Source of the DNA: a virus
DNA: 23,137 bases
Virus record (IMG/VR): IMGVR_UViG_3300035034_000074
Location: 1 to 23,137 of that record
Strand: one strand, 5' to 3'
Shown: positions 1,129 through 15,346 of the stretch, piece after piece
How positions within the stretch are numbered: position 1 is the stretch's first letter
Layout: the number at the start of each line of letters is the position of its first letter
Position numbers and translations under genes: made by a program
The notes under the pieces: model-generated
Databases searched by the model: none
Seen by the model: the letters and a program-made list of their open reading frames with translations, nothing else
What the model was told of the DNA's origin: nothing

Positions 1129-2601
1129 ATGGATTTCTATACTAATTTTTACTCACGCGGTGATACTCTCTATTATCGTGGTTATAAAGACGGCATTCAG
1201 TGTATGGATACCGCTCAGATTGAGCCCACACTTTACACCACAAAGCGCACCGGCTCCAACGAAAGTACTCAAACTACAATCTTTGGCGAATCTCTTTATC
1301 CTGTCACATTTGAAAATCCTAAAGCCGCAAAAGACTTTATGAATTCTTACAAGTCTAGCGGTGTTAATGTCTATGGGTATCCTCGTTTTGACTATGCAAC
1401 TATTGACGAGTTGTTTCCTGGCGAAATTCAATTTGACATCAGTCTTATACGCATTATGGCAATCGACATCGAGACTACAGTTAACGACGGTTTTCCTGAC
1501 ATCTTCACGGCTAACGAAGCCATAACTCTAATCGCAGCAACATTTCGTGGGCATGTCTATCAGTTTGGTTATAAAGAAACAGCCTTTCGCGCAGATGACG
1601 TAACCTATGTTTGCTGTGAAAATGAAATGCAGATGCTAAAGGCTTTCTTGAAGTTCTATGCGGCTATAAAAGTTGACATCATTACCGGTTGGAATGTTAT
1701 CGGCTTTGACTTACCATACATGTATAATCGCATTATGCTATTGTTTTCTGAAACTGTAGCAAATAAGATGTCTCCGTATGGCCGGTGCCGCAAAACACTT
1801 ACTGAGTTTAAAGGCAAAGAAGGCATCGTTATTGAAATACCTGGCATCCAAGTTCTTGACTATCTTGAGCTGTATCGTAAGTTCGAGCTGTCGCCTCGTG
1901 AAAACTATAAGTTGAGCACTATTGCCCAAGTTGAGTTAGGCGATGACAAAGTAGAATTCGAAGGCACGTTCAAAGATTTCTATACGAACAATTGGGATTT
2001 GTTCTGTGACTATAACGCTCAAGACGCGCGGCTTATTGATCGCCTTGACAACAAACTCAAGTTCATTCAGATTGCATGCACTATGGCATTTGCCGCAAAG
2101 TCTAACTTTGTTGATGTCTACCGCGTTACTCGTATCTGGGATAATATCATTGCAAACTACTTGCGCACAAACAACATGCACTTCGAAAGCTCAACTATTA
2201 GTTTTGGCGAACCGTATGAAGGCGCGTTTGTTAAACCAACTATCCCGGGCCTGTATGAGTGGATCGCGTCCTTTGACGTAGCATCTCTGTATCCATCTCT
2301 AATCATGCAATATAATATTAGCCCAGATACTATTCTCAATCGTAATACATTCCCTAACTTGACAGCACAAGATGTTATCCAAAAAACCGAAATGTTTAAT
2401 TATGCTGTAGAATGTGCAAATGAATATAATGCAACTCTTTGTGCAAATGGCGCAATGTTCTCAAAAGAAAAGCAAGGCTTCTTACCTAAATTAGTTGAGT
2501 TGTTCTTCGCCAAGCGAGTTGCAGCAAAGGCAGAAATGAAAACATGGTCAATTGAAGCTGAGCGCGTCAAAGCTGAAATTTCGTCCCGGCATGCGTACTA
2601 A
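1129..2601 (+). CDS. 43A: DNA polymerase gp43, N-terminal half (exonuclease and palm motif A)
   Basis: A 490-residue protein that is the first half of a family B, T4-type replicative DNA polymerase. The proofreading exonuclease motifs are intact: Exo I D113-I-E115, Exo II N189...F-D194, Exo III Y295-N-A-Q-D299. Polymerase motif A is D383..SLYPS followed by YNISPDT. A 'KQGFLPKLVELFFAKR' segment corresponds to the start of the fingers. The ORF then ends (TAA) in the region that in T4 gp43 is the fingers, before motif B. Motifs B and C are in the next ORF, so neither half can be an active polymerase alone. ATG 1129 has GGAG six bases upstream and a perfect promoter. Bipartite gp43 genes split in the fingers are known in some T4-like Aeromonas phages, so this is probably a functional two-subunit enzyme and not a broken gene. 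Confidence 0.95.
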   Translation: MDFYTNFYSRGDTLYYRGYKDGIQCMDTAQIEPTLYTTKRTGSNESTQTTIFGESLYPVTFENPKAAKDFMNSYKSSGVNVYGYPRFDYATIDELFPGEIQFDISLIRIMAIDIETTVNDGFPDIFTANEAITLIAATFRGHVYQFGYKETAFRADDVTYVCCENEMQMLKAFLKFYAAIKVDIITGWNVIGFDLPYMYNRIMLLFSETVANKMSPYGRCRKTLTEFKGKEGIVIEIPGIQVLDYLELYRKFELSPRENYKLSTIAQVELGDDKVEFEGTFKDFYTNNWDLFCDYNAQDARLIDRLDNKLKFIQIACTMAFAAKSNFVDVYRVTRIWDNIIANYLRTNNMHFESSTISFGEPYEGAFVKPTIPGLYEWIASFDVASLYPSLIMQYNISPDTILNRNTFPNLTAQDVIQKTEMFNYAVECANEYNATLCANGAMFSKEKQGFLPKLVELFFAKRVAAKAEMKTWSIEAERVKAEISSRHAY

Positions 2602-2610
2602 AGAATATGA

Positions 2611-2639
2611 TTGACAATTATTCATACATGTTGTATAAT
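2611..2639 (+). promoter_or_regulatory. Consensus sigma70 promoter between the two halves of gp43
   Basis: TTGACA at 2611-2616 and TATAAT at 2634-2639 with a 17-base spacer: a perfect consensus, sitting in the 67-base gap between gp43A and gp43B. Expected start near 2646 gives a leader of about 23 bases to the GTG at 2669. The bases upstream of the -35 box are A-rich. Confidence 0.9.
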
Positions 2640-2668
2640 AGATCTATCATCAAGCAAGAGGCTGTACC

Positions 2669-3763
2669 GTGTCTAAAAATCTAACTGAGTTGTCTGATAT
2701 TGAATTATCAGCATATCTTACTGAATGTAATAACAATGTCTCTAAGTTTGATAAATCTCAACATAGTGTAAAGATTCTGCTTAACAGTCTTTACGGTGCA
2801 CTCGGGTCTCCATTCTTTCGCATGTATGACAAAGCGCAAGCTGAAGGTATTACTCTATCAGGCCAAGCGGTTGTTACACAATCATATATAGTGTTTAACG
2901 ATTATCTTAACACAATGTTAAAAACTAACACTGACTATGCTGTCGCATCAGATACGGATTCTGTGTATGTTAACTTAACCCCGTTAGTCGATGCGCTCTT
3001 TCCTAAAGATACTTCTCATGATCAGTTAGTTGATGGCATTGTTGGATTATGCGACGGGCACTTCTCTGATATGTTGTCAACGCGCTTTGCTGAATATGCC
3101 ATTGAGACTAATGCGTATACTAATGCCATTGATATGAAGCGAGAGGCTGTTGCTACTGCATGCTTTGTTGCCAAAAAGAATTACGTCATGCGTGTATACG
3201 ATAACGAAGGTACTCGATATGCAACTCCTAAGCTAAAGATTACCGGTCTTGAGGCTATAAAATCTTCTACACCAAAGTTCTTTCAGGATAAGCTAAAAGC
3301 CGGTTATTCGTTTGTTTTTGATAAAACAGAATCCGATGTACATTCTTTTGTTGATAGCGTGTACAAAGAATATGCAGCTCGTCCAATTGAAAGTATTGCC
3401 GCAACTATTTCAGTCACTGAACTTGAGAAATATATCGAAGGTGACGGCTTTAAATCTGGTACTCCGGGGCATGTTAAAGCTGCTGTTATTTACAACAACT
3501 GTATTGATTCGCATAATCTCGGCAATAAGTATCACAAGATTCGTGCAGGCGATAAGATTAAGATCATCTCGCTAAAAATGCCGAATCCATTAAAACAAAA
3601 GTACTTTGCGTATTTAGATAAGTTTCCGCACGAGTTTATTCCAGAAAAATATATTGACCGTGATTCTAACTACGAAAAGTACTTCGTAACCCCACTTAAT
3701 CGAGTTCTTGGTACAGTTAAGTGGAATCATGAATACACTAGTTCGTTGGAGGATTTCTTTTGA
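2669..3763 (+). CDS. 43B: DNA polymerase gp43, C-terminal half (fingers motif B, palm motif C, thumb)
   Basis: A 364-residue protein starting with GTG 2669, preceded by AGAGG (2657-2661) at a seven-base spacing. It begins in the second fingers helix (T4 'NELSNYTESVLNSL...' matches 'LTELSDIELSAYLTE'), then has motif B K35...N39-SLYG, motif C D95-T-D97-SVYV, a KKxY-type segment, and a thumb. The last residues 'SSLEDFF' resemble the clamp-binding tail of T4 gp43 (SLDFLF). Together the halves total 854 residues against 898 for T4, so little or nothing of the enzyme is missing; they are in different frames. The downstream gene starts with TTG overlapping this stop codon (TTGA). The two halves presumably assemble non-covalently; no intein motifs are present at the break. 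Confidence 0.95.
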   Translation: MSKNLTELSDIELSAYLTECNNNVSKFDKSQHSVKILLNSLYGALGSPFFRMYDKAQAEGITLSGQAVVTQSYIVFNDYLNTMLKTNTDYAVASDTDSVYVNLTPLVDALFPKDTSHDQLVDGIVGLCDGHFSDMLSTRFAEYAIETNAYTNAIDMKREAVATACFVAKKNYVMRVYDNEGTRYATPKLKITGLEAIKSSTPKFFQDKLKAGYSFVFDKTESDVHSFVDSVYKEYAARPIESIAATISVTELEKYIEGDGFKSGTPGHVKAAVIYNNCIDSHNLGNKYHKIRAGDKIKIISLKMPNPLKQKYFAYLDKFPHEFIPEKYIDRDSNYEKYFVTPLNRVLGTVKWNHEYTSSLEDFF

Positions 3764-4095
3764 GTATAGATAAATTAATGCACCGCACACTGGTATTTGA
3801 AGATTATCTTAGAGAGGCTCCGTATAACTTTCCAGACTTGATGTTCACTATTACCACAGACGCCGAAGATAAAGATGGTCTTCCTGAGTATAGTAATACT
3901 ATTACTCGCAATCTTTGGGAAGTGTATAACTTAGCTGAGCAGCACTACGCCGAAGTAGTAAAAACACTAACTGTTGCTGTTTTGGACTCTAAGTTAGATT
4001 ATGAGAAACTTAATGAGAAACTTAATAAGAAACTTAAAAAATGCAAGAAGCGCATCAAACGCATCAAGTCTGTGAGTTGTGTTTGTAATTTGTGA
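3760..4095 (+). CDS. Small unknown protein with basic, repeat-encoded C terminus
   Basis: A 111-residue protein of unknown function between gp43B and uvsX. The TTG at 3760 overlaps the gp43B stop (TTGA) and has GGAGG at 3748-3752, seven bases upstream; the next in-frame ATG (3778) has no such site, so TTG is preferred. The N-terminal 75 residues look globular and acidic. The C terminus is very basic and is built from three 12-base tandem repeats (4002-4037) that encode a KL-rich helix, followed by KCKKRIKRIK and a final Cys-containing tail. Translational coupling to gp43B suggests a replication-linked role, possibly nucleic acid binding through the basic tail, but that is inference. I do not recognise the family. 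Confidence 0.75.
   Translation: MSIDKLMHRTLVFEDYLREAPYNFPDLMFTITTDAEDKDGLPEYSNTITRNLWEVYNLAEQHYAEVVKTLTVAVLDSKLDYEKLNEKLNKKLKKCKKRIKRIKSVSCVCNL
4002..4037 (+). repeat. Three tandem 12-base repeats inside a coding region
   Basis: TGAGAAACTTAA occurs at 4002-4013 and 4014-4025, and a one-base variant TAAGAAACTTAA follows at 4026-4037. The unit is four codons long, so it adds four residues per copy to the basic C terminus of the gene at 3760 without shifting the frame. It is a likely site of copy-number variation. Confidence 0.85.
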
Positions 4096-4214: not shown

Positions 4215-5126
4215 ATGTCTAAACTGCTAGAAAAATTGGCAAAAGCCAGTACCATCAAACACTCTGCTATATTAGGTGAGTCTAAGTTTTTTACAAGTAA
4301 AGATGAAACTGTTACTGATCTGCCAATTCTAAACTTGGCGTTCTCAGGTTCTCTTAAAGGTGGATTTGCGTCCGGTCTTACAATGATTGCGGGTCCGTCC
4401 CGCCACTTTAAATCTAATCTTGCGCTATTCTGCATCAAGTCTTATCTCACTAAACATAAAGATGCAGTCTGTCTGTTTTATGATTCTGAGTTTGGCGCAC
4501 CACCTCCGTATCTTGCTGCATTTGGTATTGATACTTCGCGCGTACTTCATACTCCAATTATCCACATTGAACAGCTAAAGTTCGATCTGATTGCACAACT
4601 TGAGAATATTGAGCGCGGAGATAAAGTCATTGTCTTTATTGACTCTGTTGGCAACTTGGCATCTAAGAAAGAAACTGATGATGCGTTAGAAGGTAAGTCT
4701 GTCGCAGATATGACTCGAGCCAAACAGCTAAAAAGTTTGTGGCGTATGGCTACACCACAGTTCACTGTAAAAGACATCCCATGTATTACAATCAACCACA
4801 GCTATGAAACTATGGAAATGTTTTCTAAAGCAATCATGTCTGGTGGATGTCTATTGCCGGGTCAGAAGATTAAAATGGCCGATGATACTTTACGCCCAAT
4901 TGAGCGTATTGCTGTTGGCGATATGGTAAAAACACTGCATGGTGATAAAGAAGTAACACATACTTGGAATCCTGAAACACTAGCAGTTGGTACTCCAGAA
5001 TGTTATCAGATTGTGTTTGAGAATGGTAGTTCTATTGAATGCTCAGCTGAACACAAGTTTCTTGTGGACGGAGAATGGGTCATGGCCAAAAATCTGAAAG
5101 ACGATGATGACTGCCAAGAACTTTAA
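4215..5126 (+). CDS. uvsX: UvsX recombinase N-extein fused to N-terminal split intein
   Basis: Residues 1-211 are the first part of a T4-type UvsX (RecA-like strand-exchange ATPase): Walker A GPSRHFKSN (60-68), 'AVCLFYDSEFG', Walker B VIVFID (138-143), 'SVGNLASKKETDDAL', and 'NHSYETMEMFSKAIMSGG'. The family then continues with TGPMYS, but here residue 212 is a Cys that opens a 92-residue N-intein ending in a stop at 5124-5126. The intein has block A (C-LLPGQKI..., GDMV) and block B (IECSAEHKFLV, with S-x-x-H in place of the usual T-x-x-H) and ends in an acidic tail (KDDDDCQEL). The C-terminal half is the separate gene at 5983. ATG 4215 is preceded by GAGGA at 4204-4208. The product should be inactive until spliced in trans. 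Confidence 0.95.
   Translation: MSKLLEKLAKASTIKHSAILGESKFFTSKDETVTDLPILNLAFSGSLKGGFASGLTMIAGPSRHFKSNLALFCIKSYLTKHKDAVCLFYDSEFGAPPPYLAAFGIDTSRVLHTPIIHIEQLKFDLIAQLENIERGDKVIVFIDSVGNLASKKETDDALEGKSVADMTRAKQLKSLWRMATPQFTVKDIPCITINHSYETMEMFSKAIMSGGCLLPGQKIKMADDTLRPIERIAVGDMVKTLHGDKEVTHTWNPETLAVGTPECYQIVFENGSSIECSAEHKFLVDGEWVMAKNLKDDDDCQEL
4848..5123 (+). other. N-intein (92 residues) of split intein in UvsX
   Basis: It starts at the Cys codon 4848-4850, directly after the conserved extein residues S-G-G. Visible motifs are catalytic Cys1, the block A glycine-aspartate turn (VGDMV), and block B with the buried His (SAEHKF). There is no in-frame endonuclease domain. The final 12 residues are strongly acidic, complementing the basic start of the C-intein, as in other natural split inteins where charge drives association. 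The length fits known N-fragments (about 90-105). Confidence 0.92.
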
Positions 5127-5142
5127 CTAAGAACGTGAAAGC

Positions 5143-5150
5143 TATAAATA
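5143..5150 (+). promoter_or_regulatory. T4-type late promoter (TATAAATA) for the homing endonuclease
   Basis: TATAAATA at 5143-5150 is an exact match to the T4 late promoter -10 consensus and is the only exact copy I found on the plus strand. Expected start is near 5156, with GGAGG at 5173-5177 and ATG at 5182. T4 homing endonucleases such as I-TevI are also driven by internal late promoters, so the placement is meaningful. Confidence 0.75.
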
Positions 5151-5181
5151 ACTCCAGTACCTAAATCATTCTGGAGGTTGT

Positions 5182-5964
5182 ATGCACTGTGTATATCTGT
5201 TGTCTTTTACGAATCGCTTGAAACAAAATACTCCACCTTACTATTATGTTGGTTCCAAATCGGACTTTAGTTTCACGGACGGTAGATTGTATGATAAAGC
5301 CGGTAAGCTATATGCTGGGTCCTCAAGATACAACGGTTGGAAGGATATTGTTAAAGATGAATACGAAGTAAGTATTCTATCAACTTGGGAAGAGTATAAA
5401 GACTGCATTGTCGCAGAGTATGACGAGCAGATTGCCAGAAATGCTGTTGCTTCACCTGAATACTTTAATCTTAGTTTTGCAGCATGTAATTCTTTCGCTA
5501 ATCCACTGTTTGCGTTGTTTAAACATTCGGTGACTGGCAAACGAGTTAGGTTAGAGATAGACCATGCGATGGTATTGAGCGGCGAATATGTTGGTATCAC
5601 GAAAGGCAACAAACTTAGTAAAGAACATCGTATGAAAATTTCTAATGGCCAATTGGGAGATAAAAATCAATTCTTTGGTCGTAAACATACTGATGAATCA
5701 TTACAGAAAATGTCTGCTGCTTTGTTGGGTAAACCGACAAGTGATCTCCAAAAACAATCCGTCTCTAAACGTCATAAGGGAGTTCCTAAAAGCAAAGAAC
5801 AGAGAGCAAAGATTGGGCGACCGGGTTTAGTAATGCTGAAGAATGTAATTACGTTAGAAGTAATTCGTGTGTCTAAAGAAGATCCGCGGTATTCAGATCC
5901 AGATTGGATGGCATTAACTCGTTACACTAGCATACAGAAAAAGCTTGCACTACTACAAATTTAA
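5182..5964 (+). CDS. Free-standing GIY-YIG homing endonuclease with NUMOD3 motifs
   Basis: A 260-residue protein lying between the two halves of uvsX. The N terminus is a GIY-YIG nuclease domain: VYLL (4-7) and YYVGS (21-25) replace GIY and YIG, a GSSR segment follows at 46-49, and E79 in 'VAEYDEQIA' is a good candidate for the catalytic glutamate. Residues of about 145-215 are a run of NUMOD3-type DNA-binding repeats ('LSKEHRMKIS', 'GRKHTDESLQKMSAALLGK', 'KGVPKSKEQRAKIG'), as in phage Seg and I-TevI-like enzymes. It likely cuts intein-free uvsX alleles near the SGG/TGG codons so that the element is copied by recombination. GGAGG (5173-5177) precedes ATG 5182, with a late promoter upstream. 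It is not fused to either intein half, which is the hallmark of a fractured-gene arrangement. Confidence 0.92.
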   Translation: MHCVYLLSFTNRLKQNTPPYYYVGSKSDFSFTDGRLYDKAGKLYAGSSRYNGWKDIVKDEYEVSILSTWEEYKDCIVAEYDEQIARNAVASPEYFNLSFAACNSFANPLFALFKHSVTGKRVRLEIDHAMVLSGEYVGITKGNKLSKEHRMKISNGQLGDKNQFFGRKHTDESLQKMSAALLGKPTSDLQKQSVSKRHKGVPKSKEQRAKIGRPGLVMLKNVITLEVIRVSKEDPRYSDPDWMALTRYTSIQKKLALLQI

Positions 5965-5982
5965 ACACAAGAGTGATAATTG

Positions 5983-6087
5983 ATGAAGATTAAAAAAATT
6001 AACAAGATGGGCAAGCGGGACGTATACGACATCTCCGTGAAAGACGCAGAACATTATGTTCTAGAGAATGGTGTAGTTACTCACAAT
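5983..6087 (+). other. C-intein (35 residues) of split intein in UvsX
   Basis: It encodes a 35-residue C-intein ending in the Asn codon 6085-6087, followed by the +1 Thr codon 6088-6090. The length and break position (between blocks B and F) match canonical natural split inteins. The N-terminal 12 residues are highly basic, opposite in charge to the tail of the N-intein. Confidence 0.92.
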
Positions 6088-6525
6088 ACAGGTGGCATGT
6101 ATTCTTCGTCTAACGTCTTTATGTTAGGACGTGCTCAAGACAAAGATGGTACTGAGCTGCAGGGATATAAGTTTACTATTAACATCGAAAAGTCTCGCCA
6201 GGTTCGAGAGAAATCTAAATTTCCATTACTCGTATCATTTGAGAAAGGTATCAGCAAATACTCTGGTCTTCTTGACTTAGCTATTGAGCTGGATTTTGTA
6301 GTTAAGCCGAAGATGGGTTGGTACTCTCGTGTATTAGTTGATGAAAAGACAGGAGAAATAGCAGAAGACAAAAACTGGCGAGCAAAAGATACACAATGCG
6401 AAGAGTTCTGGGGACCGTTACTTAACTCAGCTGCGTTTGAGAAAGCATGTAACGATCGGTACCAGTTGGGTAACACAAATTCAGAAGAAGACACAGTAGA
6501 CCTAGGAGAATTAAATGACGAATAA
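5983..6525 (+). CDS. uvsX: C-terminal split intein fused to UvsX C-extein
   Basis: The protein starts at ATG 5983, 18 bases after the endonuclease stop; a TTG at 5980 is in frame but less likely. Residues 1-35 are a C-intein: a basic start (MKIKKINKMGKR), block F (DVYDISVKDAEHYVL), and block G (VVTHN), ending in the required His-Asn. The next residue, Thr36, is the +1 nucleophile and native UvsX sequence (TGGMYSS, T4 TGPMYS). Residues 36-180 are the rest of UvsX: 'GTELQGYKFTINIEKSR', 'KSKFPLLVSFEKGI', 'YSGLLDLAIEL', 'VVKPKMGWYSR', 'WRAKDTQCEEFWGPLL'. Trans-splicing with the upstream product would give 211 + 145 = 356 residues, close to T4 UvsX. The end overlaps the next gene by 11 bases. Confidence 0.95.
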   Translation: MKIKKINKMGKRDVYDISVKDAEHYVLENGVVTHNTGGMYSSSNVFMLGRAQDKDGTELQGYKFTINIEKSRQVREKSKFPLLVSFEKGISKYSGLLDLAIELDFVVKPKMGWYSRVLVDEKTGEIAEDKNWRAKDTQCEEFWGPLLNSAAFEKACNDRYQLGNTNSEEDTVDLGELNDE

Positions 6526-7235: not shown

Positions 7236-7266
7236 AAAATCCCGGTATACATTGCCGGGATTTTTT
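7236..7266 (+). terminator. Rho-independent terminator ending the uvsX unit
   Basis: A ten-base-pair perfect stem (AAAATCCCGG 7236-7245 with CCGGGATTTT 7255-7264) around a nine-base loop TATACATTG (7246-7254), with a T-run at 7261-7266. The -35 box of the next promoter lies in the loop. Confidence 0.9.
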
Positions 7267-7274
7267 GATATAAT
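7246..7274 (+). promoter_or_regulatory. Sigma70-type promoter for gp41, nested in the terminator
   Basis: TATACA (7246-7251) and TATAAT (7269-7274) with a 17-base spacer. The -35 box matches TTGACA at four of six bases and is the same TATACA found before the promoters at 21178 and 22023. Expected start is near 7281, 22 bases before ATG 7303. Confidence 0.7.
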
Positions 7275-7302
7275 AGACTATGTTTATCAAATAGGTAAGA
7301 CT

Positions 7303-8670
7303 ATGAACGAAATCGAATTATTGATTGCTGCCTCCCTTCTAACGAATCCGGACTTCAGATCAAAGGTGTATCCTCACCTAAAACCCCAATTCTTTATGTC
7401 TCGGTCAATTTCTACGATCGTGGCTACCCTCCAAGAATATCATAACACCTACGAATCATTTCCAGATCAAACCGCACTGCGTGTTGAATTAGAGAGCCGA
7501 AAGGGTTTAACAGAAGAAGTCTTTACATCAACTGTTGGCGATCTAACTACTCTATACTCAGACAAAGTTTGTGCCGCTATATCTACAGTCGATTACCCGT
7601 GGCTACTTAACAAGACCGAGAAGTACCTAAAGACTCAGAGTTGTCACTTGGCAGTTATGGAATCTCTTGGTATTCTGGAAGGCGAGAACAAGAATCTTAC
7701 ACCCGAAGCAATTCCAGATATTCTAAAAGAAGCTCTGTCTATTTCTTTTGATGTCAATGTTGGTCACGACTATCTCGAGGATGCTGATTCTCGTTATGAT
7801 TTCTATCATAAAGTAGAGCAAAAGATTCCGTTTAAGCTGTCTGCATTGAATGCTATTACGAACGGCGGAGCTCCAAGAAAATCACTCATTGTTCCAGTTG
7901 CACCCACCGGTGTTGGTAAGTCTTTGTTCCTTACTGACTGGGCATCGTTCTTAATAACACATGGCTTTAACGTGTTGTATATTACACTTGAGATGGCCGA
8001 AGAGCGTGTAGCAGAACGTATAGACGCGAATCTTATGGATATTACAATCCAAGACTTGCAGACGATTCCCAAGTCCACATTCGATTCAAAAATTAACACA
8101 CTTAAGCGCAACTCTCCAGGTATCATTAAAATTAAAGAATATCCGCCTGGCACATTTAATGCTAACCATTTGCGGTTTTTGTTACAAGACTTGAAGAATA
8201 AAACTGGCTTTGTTCCAGATGTTATTGCAGTTGACTATCTTAACCTGATGGCATCCTATCGTATGAAAGATGCCGGCAACACTTATACTTACATCAAGGC
8301 AGTAGCCGAAGAACTGCGCGGTATCGCCATGGAATTTGATAACATTGTGATAGCTCCAACTCAGACTAACCGGACGGCTAGCGGTGCTTCTGACTTTGAA
8401 CTGAATGAAGTTTCAGAATCATTCGGTATTGCTATGACGGCTGATTGTATGTTCGGTCTTATTAGTACTCCAGACATGGAAACGCTTGGACATCTGCGCA
8501 TCAAAATGCTAAAGAATCGGTGGGGTAGTATTGATCGGTCGTTCTTATCAGCGATCAATCGTGCAAAAATGCAGCTTAATGATCTTGATGTCATTACACC
8601 GCAAGCACCACGCCCTTCAAACAAACCTTCTTTAAATAACAAACCAGCTATAACAGGAATGAAATTCTAA
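7303..8670 (+). CDS. 41: Replicative DNA helicase gp41 (DnaB family)
   Basis: A 455-residue protein (T4 gp41: 475). ATG 7303 is preferred over the in-frame TTG 7252, which lies inside the terminator hairpin and upstream of the expected transcription start; AGGT at 7293-7296 precedes ATG, and the product then begins MNEIELLIAASLL, like the T4 protein. The N-terminal domain (about 1-130) is followed by the RecA-like core: Walker A APTGVGKS (200-207), 'NVLYITLEMAEERVAERIDANLMD', a 'VIAVDYLNLM' Walker B region, and 'IVIAPTQTNR'. It unwinds DNA at the fork as a hexamer with the gp61 primase encoded further down. The C-terminal tail is low in complexity (PRPSNKPSLNNKP). It overlaps the next start by one base (TAATG). 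No intein is present, unlike some relatives. Confidence 0.93.
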   Translation: MNEIELLIAASLLTNPDFRSKVYPHLKPQFFMSRSISTIVATLQEYHNTYESFPDQTALRVELESRKGLTEEVFTSTVGDLTTLYSDKVCAAISTVDYPWLLNKTEKYLKTQSCHLAVMESLGILEGENKNLTPEAIPDILKEALSISFDVNVGHDYLEDADSRYDFYHKVEQKIPFKLSALNAITNGGAPRKSLIVPVAPTGVGKSLFLTDWASFLITHGFNVLYITLEMAEERVAERIDANLMDITIQDLQTIPKSTFDSKINTLKRNSPGIIKIKEYPPGTFNANHLRFLLQDLKNKTGFVPDVIAVDYLNLMASYRMKDAGNTYTYIKAVAEELRGIAMEFDNIVIAPTQTNRTASGASDFELNEVSESFGIAMTADCMFGLISTPDMETLGHLRIKMLKNRWGSIDRSFLSAINRAKMQLNDLDVITPQAPRPSNKPSLNNKPAITGMKF

Positions 8671-9701
8671 TGGCCGTCTTATCATCTCAGACAACTGACA
8701 AACAGCTATCATTTACAAAATATGTAACCAATAACAAGCGTCTTAAAGATATAGACTTCGAGATTGATAAGGGTCTCGAGGCTGTCTTGTACACCAAATC
8801 GGGTATTACATACGCAGTGTCAGATGCACCAAATTTGAAGCCGGGGGAAAAGTTTAAGATAACAGACACCAAACTTTACGATCCGATGAAATTAAAATTA
8901 GCAAAAGTCGCGTACAAGAATCGCACATATTTTGCCCAAATTTCAAAAATTAGAAAACCTACTGGTGGAAACGGTACGCAATATGAAGACGAAGTTGTTG
9001 ATTCGCTGAATAGTTATATCAAAGACGCAGGCGGCGTTGTTACATTTGTACTTAAGGGAGATAATAGACTTTATCGTGATATGCGATACGCGGTTAAAGT
9101 GGATAGTCGAATTAAGTCAAGTGGTGGCGTAAAGGGAGACCCTAAAGCCGATATTATAATATGTGCTGATATTAAGAATCCGACGGCCAAAGGATCAATT
9201 TACATATCCCATAAGAAAGAAGGCGGCCCTGAAGCATTCCAGCAGTATGGCGGTTTAAGTAAGCAAGCAGGCGAACATATATTCAATCATCCGCTTACTC
9301 AGAAATTTTTGAAGGCTGCTGCCGGAAATATTACCGGTGATAAATTAACATCTCCGTTAATGATGACATTTGATGACAAAGAATTGTCTAACCTATCCAT
9401 ATATGGACCTGAGTATGGTAAAGCATTCTCTTTACAAAATACACAATTGATTGGGCAAGGTTCACCTAGGTACGATTACTCTGCATCTAAAGACATTACG
9501 ACATTGGACTTTTCGTCGCATATGAGTCTAAACGGCGATCTTAGTCACTTCGTGGGTGGGTATGAACCAGTATTTGGTGCAACATATCGCGCAGGACGAG
9601 GTTTTGATTTTGAAGGCAAACGTTATAGCGGCGCACGGGTTGCATTATACCCCAAAAATCTAATGCAGACGCGGTCTAAGTTAATTACATTTAAGGGTTA
9701 A
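8670..9701 (+). CDS. PD-(D/E)XK-like nuclease-fold protein, putative
   Basis: A 343-residue protein whose ATG overlaps the gp41 stop. The middle region suggests a restriction-endonuclease-like fold: a helix with acids (YEDEVVDSL, E106/E108), then GDPKADIII (D161), then a strand ending ISHKK (K182), then 'FQQYGGLSKQAG'. In the usual motif the residue two before the Lys is Asp or Glu; here it is Ser180, as in some divergent members. The N-terminal 100 residues form a separate, beta-rich part. Similar proteins near gp41 in T4-like marine phages are familiar to me but have no assigned role. Translational coupling to the helicase suggests DNA replication, repair or host-DNA breakdown. The fold is inferred from motif pattern only. 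Confidence 0.6.
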   Translation: MAVLSSQTTDKQLSFTKYVTNNKRLKDIDFEIDKGLEAVLYTKSGITYAVSDAPNLKPGEKFKITDTKLYDPMKLKLAKVAYKNRTYFAQISKIRKPTGGNGTQYEDEVVDSLNSYIKDAGGVVTFVLKGDNRLYRDMRYAVKVDSRIKSSGGVKGDPKADIIICADIKNPTAKGSIYISHKKEGGPEAFQQYGGLSKQAGEHIFNHPLTQKFLKAAAGNITGDKLTSPLMMTFDDKELSNLSIYGPEYGKAFSLQNTQLIGQGSPRYDYSASKDITTLDFSSHMSLNGDLSHFVGGYEPVFGATYRAGRGFDFEGKRYSGARVALYPKNLMQTRSKLITFKG

Positions 9702-9706
9702 TATCG

Positions 9707-11257
9707 ATGAAACTTTTTGAAGCAGGGAATGTCCGCCAAGGATTGCCGCACATTCATAGTATGACGTTAGATCAATTCAAAAATCTTACTCACGGTGGCA
9801 AAGTACATCTCCACGACTTGACTGAAAAGACTGACGGGCAGGCGCATGTATTTGGACATGATGAACATGGTTTTTATACACAATCATCGGGGTCAGGTTC
9901 TGACAAAATGCGCCACCCTGATGACTTTAAGCATCGCGCAATTGCTCGAGCTAAAGAGACGGGCAAAGAACCTAGTCTACACGCAGCAGAAGCATTTGGT
10001 CATATTCACAAGATCTTGCATGCCAATACTAAACTACAACAGCACCTTAAAGATCAGCATACAAAGACGGGTGCTGAAGTAAAAGTTCGCGGCGAATCTT
10101 TTTATCGCCCATGGGGTTCACCCGGGACGCATGAAGGCGAAACTAAGTTTGTTGGAACATCTTATGCAACTCATCATATGGGTTCTGTTGGAAAGTATGT
10201 AATTCATACTAAGCTGCCAGACAATCACGGTCACGACGTTGATCATTTTAAAAAGCATCTATCTGATTCCCATATCAATTTTGATGATGATAAAATCCAT
10301 CATGCAGCTAAATCCGTTGATGTATCAGATGAGCATAAAGCTCTACATAGCCTTAACCATGAATTGATTTCGTCCCGGACTACTAAGACTAACAAAGAAG
10401 CAAAATTGGCAGAAGTAGAAAAGATGTCCAAGCTACAACACTCTGTCTCGGCAAAAGTCGATCATCACGTTAAGAAGATGGGATTAACTCCAAAATGGGG
10501 TTCTGGGTCTGAAGGTATTGTTATTCATCCGTCATCATCAAACTCTACCGCCCCAAGGTTCAAAGTGACGAGTGACAACTTCCGTCAGTATAAAAAAGAA
10601 GCTGCACCATGGAAGGGTTCTGCTAAAACCGAGTCGGCTTATATAATGCCTTTTGGTGCCTTCTTAGCTGAAGCTGCTACGACCCATCACACGTCTGTTA
10701 TTCCGATGGTTGGCTTCTCCCCTATCTCCCACATGGGTCATGCCAAAGATCTTGGAGACGCGCTATCTAAACTCCCAGGTAAGAAACATATTGGAATCTC
10801 ATCTAAAGCTGACGTCTTTACGCCCAAAGAGCGCGGGGATATACTTCATAAGCAGTGGGGTCAAACGGATCTTAAGCACCATGAAGTAAAATCAGCCGGT
10901 GAAACTATTGCTAACGCGCATGCAGCTCTTCCTAAGAACGGCAAAAAAGTACTTCATATGCTCGTTGGCCATGATCGTAAAGACTTTGCACATGGTCTAA
11001 AGAAGTCTCTTGAAGCCGGGAAGATTAAAGAGATGGGAGAATCAAAGTGGGACGAGATTCACATTCACCATCCTGAAGATTCTGATCGCTCACATGGTAT
11101 GTCTGGTACTAATATGCGTGGTGCCGCAATGAACGACAACCACGAAGAATTCCATAGGCACCTAGGATCAATGTTTACTGGCCAAGAAGCAAAGAAAATA
11201 CACAAGCGGGTCAAAGAAGGTTTAGATACCGGGCAGATTAAGGTAAAGCGGAAATGA
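9707..11257 (+). CDS. Fusion of ligase-like nucleotidyltransferase and HxGH nucleotidylyltransferase domains
   Basis: A 516-residue protein with two catalytic signatures. Residues 1-300 resemble the covalent nucleotidyltransferase fold of DNA/RNA ligases: EKTDG (40-44; K41 as candidate nucleotide-accepting Lys of KxDG), 'VKVRGESF' (125-132), SEGIVIH (268-274; motif IV type), and RFKVTS (284-289; K286 as motif V Lys). Residues of about 330-490 resemble HIGH-family nucleotidylyltransferases (NMNAT/cytidylyltransferase type): 'MVGFSPISHMGHAKDL' with H342-M-G-H345, and 'MSGTNMRGAA' (465-474), equivalent to the ISSTxxR motif. Both sets of key residues are present, so both domains may be active. 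It contains 54 His in 516 residues. The next gene, another nucleotidyltransferase, overlaps it by four bases. The substrate cannot be told from the sequence. Confidence 0.7.
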   Translation: MKLFEAGNVRQGLPHIHSMTLDQFKNLTHGGKVHLHDLTEKTDGQAHVFGHDEHGFYTQSSGSGSDKMRHPDDFKHRAIARAKETGKEPSLHAAEAFGHIHKILHANTKLQQHLKDQHTKTGAEVKVRGESFYRPWGSPGTHEGETKFVGTSYATHHMGSVGKYVIHTKLPDNHGHDVDHFKKHLSDSHINFDDDKIHHAAKSVDVSDEHKALHSLNHELISSRTTKTNKEAKLAEVEKMSKLQHSVSAKVDHHVKKMGLTPKWGSGSEGIVIHPSSSNSTAPRFKVTSDNFRQYKKEAAPWKGSAKTESAYIMPFGAFLAEAATTHHTSVIPMVGFSPISHMGHAKDLGDALSKLPGKKHIGISSKADVFTPKERGDILHKQWGQTDLKHHEVKSAGETIANAHAALPKNGKKVLHMLVGHDRKDFAHGLKKSLEAGKIKEMGESKWDEIHIHHPEDSDRSHGMSGTNMRGAAMNDNHEEFHRHLGSMFTGQEAKKIHKRVKEGLDTGQIKVKRK

Positions 11258-12132
11258 AAACATTTGGTAGATTTAAACAGATTCTTAGTGAGGGCGGCAA
11301 CGTAAAGATTGGAGATGTTGCGGCCGGTCCACTGACAGTTACTGCTGCTAATAGAACTGAACACCAGCATGACGTTCATACAATGCTTAGCCATGTTCAC
11401 GACTCGATGCATGCAGAACATGGCGTTCATCTGTTTGGTAAAGACAAAAAGGCACTGCATTCACATAGTGCCTTTTCTGGTTCAACAAAACATCTAATGA
11501 ATAACGATATTAGCCACAGCGATTTCGCAAAACACAAATCGTCCGTAGGTGACCTTGATGTATCTGTTCCACATGAACACTACGACAAGTTACATGCGCA
11601 TCTGACCGCCGGAAAAAAGTTTGGCAAATATCATGTAGTTGGAACAAAGAAGTCTGGTAGCGAAACGCATGCTCTAATGAAACACGAAAATGGTCAAGTT
11701 CACCAAGTTGATTTTGAGAAGTCGACTTATCATAAAGATGAACCAAATGAGTTTACGCAGTTTGGGCACGGCTCGCATTGGGATGATACTAAAAGTGGTA
11801 TTAAAGGTGTTCATCACAAGTTGCTACTAAATGCAGCTGGTACTAATAAGCACAAGTTCTCTACTATGTATGGTGCAAAGTCTCGTACTGATGACAAAGA
11901 TTCATACGCAAGTACTAAGAAAGACATTACACATAAGATATTCGGTAAAGGTGCCGACCACGCTCACTTAGATTCATTTCATGGCGTCTCACATTTAATT
12001 AAGAACCACATTCCAAAAGAACATCACCAAGCCGTCTACGACAAGTTCAAATCATCAGTTGATGTAAAGAAAGGTATTGACCACGAACCCGCTCTTAAAC
12101 ATCTCCATAAAGCACTTGAACTTCACAAGTAA
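11254..12132 (+). CDS. Pol-beta-like nucleotidyltransferase, His-rich
   Basis: A 292-residue protein whose ATG overlaps the previous stop (ATGA). It carries a minimal Pol-beta superfamily signature: FSGS (74-77), then VGDLDVSV with D100 and D102 as the paired metal-binding acids, and QVDFE (151-155) with D153 as the third. The gap of 23 residues between GS and the first Asp is longer than in classic members. A C-terminal part of about 100 residues looks helical. It contains 39 His in 292 residues (13 percent), an unusual composition shared with the fusion protein upstream. Such enzymes transfer nucleotides to nucleic acids, proteins or small molecules; the target here is unknown. Coupled translation suggests it works with the upstream fusion protein. 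A ten-base-pair hairpin lies inside the gene at 11447-11476. Confidence 0.65.
   Translation: MKTFGRFKQILSEGGNVKIGDVAAGPLTVTAANRTEHQHDVHTMLSHVHDSMHAEHGVHLFGKDKKALHSHSAFSGSTKHLMNNDISHSDFAKHKSSVGDLDVSVPHEHYDKLHAHLTAGKKFGKYHVVGTKKSGSETHALMKHENGQVHQVDFEKSTYHKDEPNEFTQFGHGSHWDDTKSGIKGVHHKLLLNAAGTNKHKFSTMYGAKSRTDDKDSYASTKKDITHKIFGKGADHAHLDSFHGVSHLIKNHIPKEHHQAVYDKFKSSVDVKKGIDHEPALKHLHKALELHK
11447..11476. other. Terminator-like hairpin inside a coding region
   Basis: AAAAGGCACT (11447-11456) and AGTGCCTTTT (11467-11476) form a perfect ten-base-pair stem with a ten-base loop. It looks like the core of a bidirectional intrinsic terminator, but the T-run ends with the stem and the site is in the middle of the Pol-beta-like gene. 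Confidence 0.7.
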
Positions 12133-12880: not shown

Positions 12881-13450
12881 ATGTTCTCTGAAGATCATAC
12901 ATTATACATAGCGCCAAACTTTGACCAAGCATTTATGATTCCCAGAGAACAGATGCCACAGATTGCGGGTAAAGATGTTAAACATTTTCTTGGCAAATGC
13001 GGCGTTAAGAATGAAACAACTACAGTCGCAACTCATTCTTTAAAGCCAACTCAGTCGCAATTCAATACGAGTAAGATAGATGCTATAGGCAAAACTGATA
13101 TGCCTATTTTGGTGTCTAACAACGGATATGTTCTTGATGGTCATCATCGCTGGTTGGCAAATCATTATAATAAGAATGACCAAGTGATCATCAAACTGCC
13201 ATGGGATGCACAGACATCTCTAATAAAAATGCAAGAGTACGAGAAAACATTTTCAAGTGCTATTCATGAAGAAGGTGTAGTAATGACTTCAGGTGGCGAT
13301 AGTGCCCCAGCTGTATCAATTGGGAATAAGGCTATGGATAATACCGTCGTCATTCCTAAAAAGAAAAAACAACCATTCGGAGTATGGAAACGTGAAAACT
13401 ACAAAAATGTCGGCACAAACAATCGCAAAGATGACTCACCAAGTAAATAA
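12881..13450 (+). CDS. ParB-like domain protein
   Basis: A 189-residue protein. The centre has a ParB/sulfiredoxin-fold signature: 'KPTQSQFNTSKIDAI' leading to 'MPILVSNNGYVLDGHHRWLA', with DGHHR at 86-90, where ParB-type CTPases and nucleases carry the GxxR/DGxHR loop. The N-terminal 50 residues and the C-terminal 60 (including KKKKQPFGVWKRENY) are outside the domain; the tail is basic. Phages carry many free-standing ParB-like domains; roles include DNA binding, nucleotide hydrolysis and modification, and none can be assigned here. The ribosome site is weak (AAGGGATG). The 3' end overlaps the RyR-domain gene by 20 bases. Confidence 0.75.
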   Translation: MFSEDHTLYIAPNFDQAFMIPREQMPQIAGKDVKHFLGKCGVKNETTTVATHSLKPTQSQFNTSKIDAIGKTDMPILVSNNGYVLDGHHRWLANHYNKNDQVIIKLPWDAQTSLIKMQEYEKTFSSAIHEEGVVMTSGGDSAPAVSIGNKAMDNTVVIPKKKKQPFGVWKRENYKNVGTNNRKDDSPSK

Positions 13451-14293: not shown

Positions 14294-15346
14294 ATGTCAG
14301 CAATGATTGAGATGAAGTACATAAATTTTATCTCTTCCTCGTTGGAGCGATTCAAGTGGGTCGTTCCGTCTAAGGTTGCACAATTCAGATGTAATGTATG
14401 TGGAGATTCTGATACTCACAAGAATAAGACTCGTGGATATCTCTATATTATTAGCAAGAACGATATGTTTGCGTTTAAGTGCCACAAGTGTAGCGCTTCT
14501 ATGTCGTTTCGTAATTACATTAAACTATACTTTCCTCATTATCACCAAGAACTCCGATTAGAATTATATAAAGACCGGGCTGGTGCTAGAAGTCTTTCTA
14601 AACCAATTGAAGCTCAACCTATAGTTGCAACTGTTTGCATAGCTGAAGTTAAGCCAGCGACATCTAATGTACTAATCTACCCACTCTCAGAACTTCACGA
14701 AGAACATCTAGCGGTAACTTATTGCAAACAACGAATGATTCCCGAATCACGGTTCGGCGATCTTTATTACACCCCGAATTATGCAGACTGGATTATGAGT
14801 GTTATTCCCGATCCAGAAATAAATGCAAAGAAGTTTCCAACTGATGCAAGATTGGTTATGATGATGAGAGACTTTAGCGGTGATATATTCGGTGCTCAGG
14901 GTAGAGCCTTAGGTAATCATTATGTTAGATACAGTACGATCAAGTTTGATGAGAATAAGCAGAAGATATTTGGTCTTGAGCGTGTAAACTTAGAACACCC
15001 AGTGCTCGTGCTCGAAGGTCCAATAGACAGTCTGTTTCTTCCAAATGCAATCGCGGTATGCGGAGGCGATATAGGTTCATCTGTAAGACAACTTGGAGTT
15101 GATCCTAAGAAGCTAATAGTAATGCTCGATAATGAGCCTCGCCATAAAGATACATTGCGTAGAATGAAAACCGCAATTGATGCTGGCTGTAATGTTTGCT
15201 TCTGGGATATTGACACTAAGTACAAAGACGTTAATGATATGATTAAGAACGGTATTACTAAAGCCAAAATTTTGGCAAACATTAAAGACAATGTATATAA
15301 GGGAAGCAAAGCAATGGCAAAATTAGCACAATGGGGCAAACTATGA
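14294..15346 (+). CDS. 61: DNA primase gp61
   Basis: A 350-residue protein (T4 gp61: 342). A zinc ribbon is formed by C33-x2-C36 and C63-x2-C66, with 'GYLYIISKNDMFAFKCHKC' between the pairs. The TOPRIM catalytic core is seen at 'PVLVLEGPIDSLF' (E241) and 'KLIVMLDNEPRHKD' (D279, E281). It makes RNA primers for lagging-strand synthesis in complex with the gp41 helicase encoded in this window. The start at ATG 14294 follows GTGAGTGA; a second ATG at codon 4 is possible. The C terminus overlaps nrdB as ATGA. It is about 5.6 kb from gp41, separated by the enzyme cassette and spanins, whereas in T4 the genes are much closer. Confidence 0.93.
   Translation: MSAMIEMKYINFISSSLERFKWVVPSKVAQFRCNVCGDSDTHKNKTRGYLYIISKNDMFAFKCHKCSASMSFRNYIKLYFPHYHQELRLELYKDRAGARSLSKPIEAQPIVATVCIAEVKPATSNVLIYPLSELHEEHLAVTYCKQRMIPESRFGDLYYTPNYADWIMSVIPDPEINAKKFPTDARLVMMMRDFSGDIFGAQGRALGNHYVRYSTIKFDENKQKIFGLERVNLEHPVLVLEGPIDSLFLPNAIAVCGGDIGSSVRQLGVDPKKLIVMLDNEPRHKDTLRRMKTAIDAGCNVCFWDIDTKYKDVNDMIKNGITKAKILANIKDNVYKGSKAMAKLAQWGKL

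Follow-up and report, generated by a model that had tools for sequence, protein, structure and literature searches.

We analysed a viral metagenomic sequence of 23,137 nucleotides (IMG/VR record IMGVR_UViG_3300035034_000074, positions 1 to 23,137; hereafter the window), in which three tightly packed open reading frames (ORFs), referred to as genes A, B and C, lie in a row on the + strand downstream of a gp41-type replicative helicase gene. The products appear to combine a nuclease, a ligase-like protein fused to an HxGH nucleotidyltransferase, and a Pol-beta-like nucleotidyltransferase, and two of the three carry sequences resembling the capsid targeting sequences of phage T4. The features are listed below, with arrows marking predicted cleavage positions.

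7252..8670, + strand: gp41-type replicative helicase (DnaB_C, E=1e-17; phrog_19, E=9e-100); the cassette starts right after it
8670..9701, + strand: gene A, nuclease of the PD-(D/E)xK type as judged by motif; the start codon (ATG) overlaps the stop codon of gp41
9707..11257, + strand: gene B, fusion of a ligase-like and an HxGH domain
9707..9721, + strand: N-terminal MKLFE↓A of gene B, a degenerate targeting/cleavage motif (L-x-E)
9707..10645, + strand: predicted ligase domain of gene B (motif I K41 codon at 9827, EG at 10511, motif V K286 codon at 10562)
10646..10672, + strand: internal MPFGAFLAE↓A of gene B, a capsid-targeting-like sequence with an L-x-E site, between the ligase and HxGH domains
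10673..11257, + strand: predicted HxGH nucleotidyltransferase domain of gene B (HMGH at 10730-10741, SGTNMR at 11102-11119)
11254..12132, + strand: gene C, predicted Pol-beta-superfamily nucleotidyltransferase (GS 76-77, DxD 100/102, D153)
11254..11292, + strand: putative propeptide of gene C, MKTFGRFKQILSE↓G (followed by a further G), an IPI-like capsid targeting sequence

The initial annotation had described three consecutive genes behind gp41 with minimal spacing, and this arrangement is confirmed: a 5-nucleotide gap separates A from B, and B and C share an ATGA overlap. The cassette also lies between gp41 and gp61, as proposed, with ORF 14294-15346 occupying the expected gp61 position. The nuclease, ligase/HIGH and Pol-beta signatures reported there are likewise borne out by intact motifs in 15-20 relatives, and structural models back the ligase and gene C. 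Pfam and NCBIfam contain no family matching gene A, the ligase part of gene B or gene C. Sequence-profile searches of the PDB gave chance matches or none, and 50,697 phage records searched by tblastn with gene B gave no match; relatives of the ligase family were obtained from IMG/VR only. The proteins encoded by genes B and C are basic (isoelectric point 9.2-9.4) and have an unusually high content of His (10-13%) and Lys (12-13%). This His/Lys richness sets both apart from the other proteins of the window, and neither gene (9707-12132) encodes a Cys.

Proteins of the ligase and Pol-beta families begin with a T4-type capsid targeting sequence of the form MKTFxxF...LxE↓A/G. In the T4 tag, residues 4 and 7 direct packaging and residues 8 and 10 processing; the protease gp21 cleaves after L/I-x-E, and the tag takes foreign enzymes into the head and then into the host (PMC9026906). 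Read directly from the sequences, the N-terminus of T4 IPII and IPIII is MKTYQEFIAE↓A and that of IPI is MKTFKEFTSTTTPVSTITE↓A. Gene C starts with MKTFGRF, in which F4 and F7 match the aromatic positions 4 and 7 of the T4 tag, and continues to a putative LSE↓G cleavage site; the tag coincides exactly with the disordered residues 1-13 of the gene C model. A relative of gene C starts with MKSFKQFITE↓GG, and ligase relatives start, for example, with MKTFAQFVAE↓AS or MKKFSEFLNE↓AS. The internal site of gene B corresponds to the start of a separate, tagged HxGH gene at two related loci, L162 and L185.

A loose regular expression applied to whole genomes yields many chance matches, so the N-termini of defined families were compared with those of control families instead. 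Among distinct N-termini, the tag is present in 21/21 ligases (13 in the strict form), where it lies just upstream of a shared IRQGLPHI block, and in 19/20 Pol-beta proteins (12 strict). It is also found, in its strict form, in 66/92 proteins of the DUF6267 family. The controls lack it, with 0/55 for gp41 and 0/35 for UvsX. In the metagenomic set of HxGH proteins the loose motif occurs in 18 of 53 distinct N-termini (13 strict), indicating that the tag is less constant on this gene than on the ligase and Pol-beta genes. The protease gp21 and the capsid protein gp23 are encoded in four of six relatives' records; the window, a 23-kb fragment, does not reach that region. In one relative's genome (G001, the genome of locus L001), gp23 contains LLGE↓A. 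The same genome encodes, close behind gp23 (49435-49938), a 2H-phosphoesterase-like protein with the tag MKTFLEYVTE↓G and, at 138502-138810, an ADP-ribosyltransferase-like protein with the tag MIPFANFIAE↓S, both recognised by eye.

The N-terminal domain of gene B contains all of the covalent nucleotidyltransferase motifs, namely I (KxDG), III/IIIa, IV (EG) and V (K). K41 of EKTDG, E130 of RGE, E269-G270 and K286 of RFK are invariant in 20 relatives. The AlphaFold model of the domain has a predicted local distance difference test (pLDDT) score of 89.3, with residues 1-11 disordered. The top Foldseek rows for this model are T4 Rnl1 and the Naegleria RNA ligase, with E-values (0.1) so weak that the fold assignment is limited to the superfamily level. 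The comparison with the Naegleria enzyme gives a VIA Z of 9.4 and a root-mean-square deviation of 3.6 over 185 residues. Other RNA ligases follow with VIA Z values of 8.5 (Rnl1), 8.2 (REL1) and 8.1 (Rnl2), and DNA ligases reach at most 6.7. Motifs and model together support the assignment of this domain as an RNA-ligase-like covalent nucleotidyltransferase, apparently one without a C-terminal OB domain.

The C-terminal third of gene B matches PHROG cytidyltransferases (phrog_3041, E=1e-10; phrog_395, E=4e-8), families that include cyanophage proteins detected in virions. Its GFSPxSHMGH and SGTxxR motifs are nearly invariant across 17 HxGH sequences, and the HxGH gene occurs in more than 500 phage records. 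Fusion of the HxGH domain to a ligase of the window family was found in this record only.

In gene C, the GS motif, the DxD aspartates (D100 and D102) and a third aspartate (D153) are invariant among 18 sequences with identities down to 25%, S77 being nearly so. The AlphaFold model (pLDDT 90.3) is disordered only at residues 1-13 and has a Pol-beta palm fold. Similar structures are those of Pol lambda, with a Foldseek probability of up to 0.99, of Pol beta, with a Z of 9.0, and of Pol mu and Thermus PolX. Pfam gives no Pol-beta family match for gene C or its distant relatives; the palm fold of the model, together with the GS/DxD/Asp motif set, supports its placement in the Pol-beta superfamily of nucleotidyltransferases.

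Gene A matches phrog_13937 (E=9e-29), a family annotated as of unknown function. Residues E106, KAD161, S180-H-K182 and QQ 191-192 are invariant in 18 relatives and provide the conserved E, D and (D/E/S)xK of PD-(D/E)xK nucleases, making gene A a probable nuclease of this type as judged from its motifs. Its neighbours in other phages are gp41, DUF6267 and the HxGH gene.

The gene neighbourhood in relatives identifies a conserved unit that differs from the three-gene cassette. A ligase gene followed by a Pol-beta gene, with an HxGH domain nearby, is present at 18/18 IMG/VR loci with sufficient flanking sequence. The conserved unit is thus ligase, Pol-beta and HxGH, often accompanied by a polynucleotide-kinase-type HAD phosphatase. 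In several relatives, HAD proteins matching phrog_415 (polynucleotide kinase) are encoded beside a ligase or Pol-beta gene, and some of them are tagged. The fusion partner of the HxGH domain varies: it is joined to the Pol-beta protein in most relatives and to the ligase in the window, it is encoded by a separate gene with its own targeting sequence in L162 and L185, and it forms part of a 906-amino-acid triple fusion of ligase, Pol-beta and HxGH in L171. Gene A and the window ligase family occur together in the window only (0/35 gene A loci and 0/30 ligase loci elsewhere), and other relatives have different nuclease-like genes at gene A's place. The multi-enzyme repair or modification set proposed in the initial annotation therefore holds in part: intact active sites and the co-occurrence of ligase, Pol-beta and HxGH speak for it, but gene A falls outside the conserved unit.

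Several relatives (L163 8150-9556, L166 9407-10312 and L181 9372-10520) encode, behind the Pol-beta-HxGH gene, a P-loop protein with GGPGSGKD and a weak match to Zeta toxin/kinase; it could be a nucleic-acid or nucleotide kinase. One further gene of the window might possibly be a member of the set:

12881..13450, + strand: candidate accessory gene F, ParB-like protein; a related domain ends the HxGH protein of phage DLP6, and a related gene lies downstream of the X1 HxGH gene

In Xanthomonas phage X1, Pol-beta, nuclease-like, ligase-like, HxGH and ParB-like genes are clustered, and Vibrio phage pv27 has a third kind of ligase-like/HxGH fusion.

In most T4-like cyanophages, the slot behind gp41 is filled by DUF6267 (PF19782), which is present in 466 phage records, mostly from cyanophages, and which gene A accompanies. 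A literature search for the term DUF6267 returned no papers. The family carries KWDG, EG and a late K, as ligases do, and is presumptively another ligase; fusions of DUF6267 to HxGH occur in S-PM2 and phrog_455. Homology between the window ligase and DUF6267 was not demonstrated at the sequence level (hhalign probability 6%), and we regard DUF6267 as a likely functional counterpart. At locus L172, a 67-amino-acid ORF (3606-3809) resembling a tagged DUF6267 N-terminus lies immediately upstream of the ligase gene. Because this fragment directly precedes the ligase, it suggests that one ligase displaced another at the slot behind gp41, the ORF being a possible fossil of the exchange.

To examine whether such tags accompany virion proteins, we turned to the published virion proteome of cyanophage S-CREM2, which lists 52 proteins (PMC10665884) from a phage encoding 219. 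The exact T4 register, M..[FYL]..F[LIVF].E, is matched by 5/219 proteins, and all five are in the virion list (P = 6.5e-4), with 0.03 matches expected by shuffling. Positions 4, 7, 8 and 10 of the register were taken from T4, but the strict form was set after a looser pattern had been viewed on the same proteome, so the result serves as a consistency check. The five proteins are an HxGH cytidylyltransferase (MKNFSSFLTE↓A), an S-adenosylmethionine hydrolase, a kinase and two unknowns. The S-CREM2 protein gp156, of the Pol-beta family (Pfam NTP_transf_2), is also in the virion. S-CREM2 encodes a Cas9-like nuclease and an APH-like kinase (L192 7704-10313 and 10579-12846), both virion-detected; the kinase has the tag MKRFDAFLTE and the nuclease a similar motif, RFASFMAE↓A, near residue 18.

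Two other cyanophages provide further cases. The S-SM1 citidylyltransferase T4-GC190 and the S-SCSM1 NMN adenylyltransferase (NMNAT) were reported in virions (PMC3037559 and PMC9602691, respectively). These HxGH proteins start with MKKFSAFLNE↓A and MKSFLQFLKE↓A, and both fall in PHROGs matched by gene B. The gene preceding the S-SCSM1 HxGH gene is an annotated virion protein with a PD-(D/E)xK-like pattern recognised by eye. In S-PM2, the DUF6267-HxGH fusion has no tag, and the cytidylyltransferase of this phage was not detected in its virion (PMC3037559). The phiM12 protein gp157 ("virion structural protein") was considered as mass-spectrometry support and rejected, as it is an unrelated membrane-type protein.

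Given these properties, we favour, with modest confidence, a reading in which the genes encode a nucleic-acid end-repair kit that is packaged in the phage head, matured by protease and co-injected with the DNA. Packaging is the firmest part: the tags are conserved, T4 sets a precedent and HxGH proteins have been detected in virions, which together make it probable that the enzymes enter the head. That the set would perform end repair is fairly likely, since a ligase, a nucleotide-adding enzyme and, in relatives, a polynucleotide-kinase-type phosphatase follow the logic of Pnkp/Rnl1 and RlaP. If it does repair ends, the balance leans towards RNA over DNA as the substrate because of the ligase model and the HAD phosphatase, with genes C and A keeping DNA in play. 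The analysis itself establishes the conservation of the active sites and tags, the folds and the co-occurrence of the genes, to which the published virion detection of HxGH proteins is added; targeting, cleavage, injection and the substrate in this phage, as well as the role of the HxGH enzyme, are what we infer.

Late in infection, the N-terminal tags would draw both the ligase and the Pol-beta protein into the core of the prohead. A gp21-type prohead protease would then cleave after L-x-E and remove the tags; in gene B, cleavage at LAE↓A would in addition release the ligase domain from the HxGH domain. The mature basic enzymes would remain in the head and reach the next host together with the DNA. 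There the Pol-beta enzyme could supply missing nucleotides, the ligase could seal, and the HxGH enzyme could activate or transfer a nucleotide, so that broken ends would be restored. The likelier target would be RNA, such as tRNA cleaved by host anticodon nucleases; since such damage halts translation, a repair kit would need to come ready-made. Sites resembling late promoters (TATAAATA) show no enrichment in the window, where 26 occur against 42 expected, and late expression thus receives no support from that source.

Several observations weigh against this reading. The N-terminal tag of gene B itself is degenerate, with F4 but no aromatic residue at position 7, and gene A has no targeting sequence, its family yielding 0 genuine cases in 20. 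Mass-spectrometry records of the window ligase family itself were not found, and the authors of the S-CREM2 study warn that enzymes may co-purify with virions (PMC10665884). In the window fragment, neither a HAD phosphatase nor a kinase could be recognised. For the ligase, VIA Z values near 9 barely exceed the level common for unrelated models, and the best Foldseek E-value of 0.1 is weak taken alone; the same applies to the best value for gene C (0.005), whose closest solved folds are DNA polymerases and argue for DNA as much as for RNA.

The last point leads to the nearest rival, in which the same head-packaged kit acts on DNA, with nuclease, Pol-beta enzyme and ligase trimming, filling and sealing nicks, gaps or restriction cuts of the incoming genome or aiding its circularisation in a minimal base-excision or end-joining-like scheme. 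The similarity of gene C to Pol beta, lambda and mu and to bacterial PolX, the nuclease-like genes adjoining the ligase in several relatives, and the embedding of the set among replication and recombination genes all fit this scheme. We nevertheless consider it rather unlikely, because the ligase model is nearer to RNA than to DNA ligases and apparently has no OB domain at its C-terminus, the HAD proteins found alongside match a polynucleotide kinase family typical of RNA repair, and the many Pol beta entries in the PDB bias the gene C match. Less probable still, the cassette could be a conventional intracellular module for repair or counter-defence, made early in infection, with N-terminal motifs that serve another purpose or were inherited by chance. 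In T4, Pnkp and Rnl1 are produced after infection, the position in the replication block behind gp41 would suit such a module, and gene A and some DUF6267 proteins are untagged. Set against this, the tags are kept in nearly all relatives even though the remainder of the proteins diverges to ~45% identity, neighbouring replication genes are without them, and tags predict virion proteins in S-CREM2.

The initial annotation had also offered NAD metabolism as an alternative. In a module of this kind the HxGH enzyme would be an NMNAT that raises NAD+ early in infection, a role already proposed in cyanophages, and the ligase-like domain an accessory adenylyltransferase. Cyanophage relatives are indeed annotated as NMNAT and found in virions, and the S-SM1 HxGH protein has a weak match to NCBIfam NadD (E=0.006, below the cut-off). 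However, models of NadD, NadM and NadR do not match the HxGH domain of the window, and NAD metabolism by itself fails to account for the invariant ligase motifs and the Pol-beta gene adjacent at all 18 loci, which makes this alternative improbable. Finally, the basic, His/Lys-rich composition of B and C would suit packing with DNA, as expected of head structural or DNA-condensing proteins with relic enzyme folds, but the invariance of catalytic residues across large divergence makes relics highly improbable.

Other features of the window lie upstream of the cassette. The gene for the B-family DNA polymerase gp43 (1129-3763) consists of two ORFs, 1129-2601 and 2669-3763; the S-CREM2 polymerase is likewise annotated as two subunits. 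The uvsX gene is split (4215-6525), its N-terminal part continuing into intein-like sequence; a separate ORF comes next (5182-5964) and appears homing-endonuclease-like by eye, and 5980-6525 holds the C-terminal intein/uvsX part. This is the split intein named in the initial annotation.

The capsid tags, which the initial annotation did not include, alter when and where the enzymes would act. Our favoured reading, that of a head-packaged end-repair kit, offers both a function and a delivery route for near-ubiquitous unexplained proteins of T4-like cyanophages (HxGH, DUF6267), and a simple sequence rule would predict the enzymes that a marine T4-like phage brings into its host. If this reading is true, phages need not first make repair enzymes to pre-empt damage of the kind that tRNA cleavage causes. 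More tentatively, and with somewhat less than even confidence, we propose that a head-borne, probably RNA-directed repair system of ligase, Pol-beta enzyme and HxGH nucleotidyltransferase is widespread among T4-like phages, including many marine cyanophages; partly made up of fusions, with tags and protease sites at starts and junctions, it would be matured by the prohead protease and injected, allowing repair before any phage protein synthesis, with unrelated-looking ligases (the window family and DUF6267) in the same role.

The closest precedent for delivery is provided by T4 IPI, IPII, IPIII and Alt, which have the same N-terminal tag with aromatics at positions 4 and 7 and an L/I-x-E site. 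These proteins are co-injected with the DNA, and Alt is a packaged enzyme, in parallel to the proposed kit. The known packaged enzyme of T4 is an ADP-ribosyltransferase, whereas the cargo presumed here consists of ligase, Pol-beta enzyme and HxGH nucleotidyltransferase; unlike the T4 internal proteins, gene B bears a further tag-like site at the junction of its two domains. For function, the nearest systems are T4 Pnkp/Rnl1 tRNA repair and RlaP, the RNA-ligase-associated Pol-beta systems (PMC7824862), which share the pairing of ligase and Pol-beta enzyme and, with the window's relatives, the polynucleotide-kinase-type HAD phosphatase. Their logic, in which ends are healed, nucleotides replaced and breaks sealed, fits the window set, which differs in its capsid tags, its HxGH enzyme and the lack of a Pfam RNA ligase or Pol-beta match.

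The virion cytidyltransferase/NMNAT-like proteins of cyanophages S-SM1, S-SCSM1 and S-CREM2 belong to the same PHROGs, have the same form of tag and are virion-borne; in cyanophages, HxGH is usually a separate gene partnered by DUF6267 or another protein, and the published reading is NAD metabolism. DUF6267 resembles the window ligase in its slot, its KxDG, EG and late K, its frequent tag and its fusion or adjacency to HxGH. Polyvalent proteins (PMC5512222) are likewise multi-domain enzymes delivered from the head, with Pol-beta and ParB-like domains among their parts, but they are single large polypeptides, whereas the window set is made up of proteins that are separate or have two domains and that bear a tag of the T4 type.

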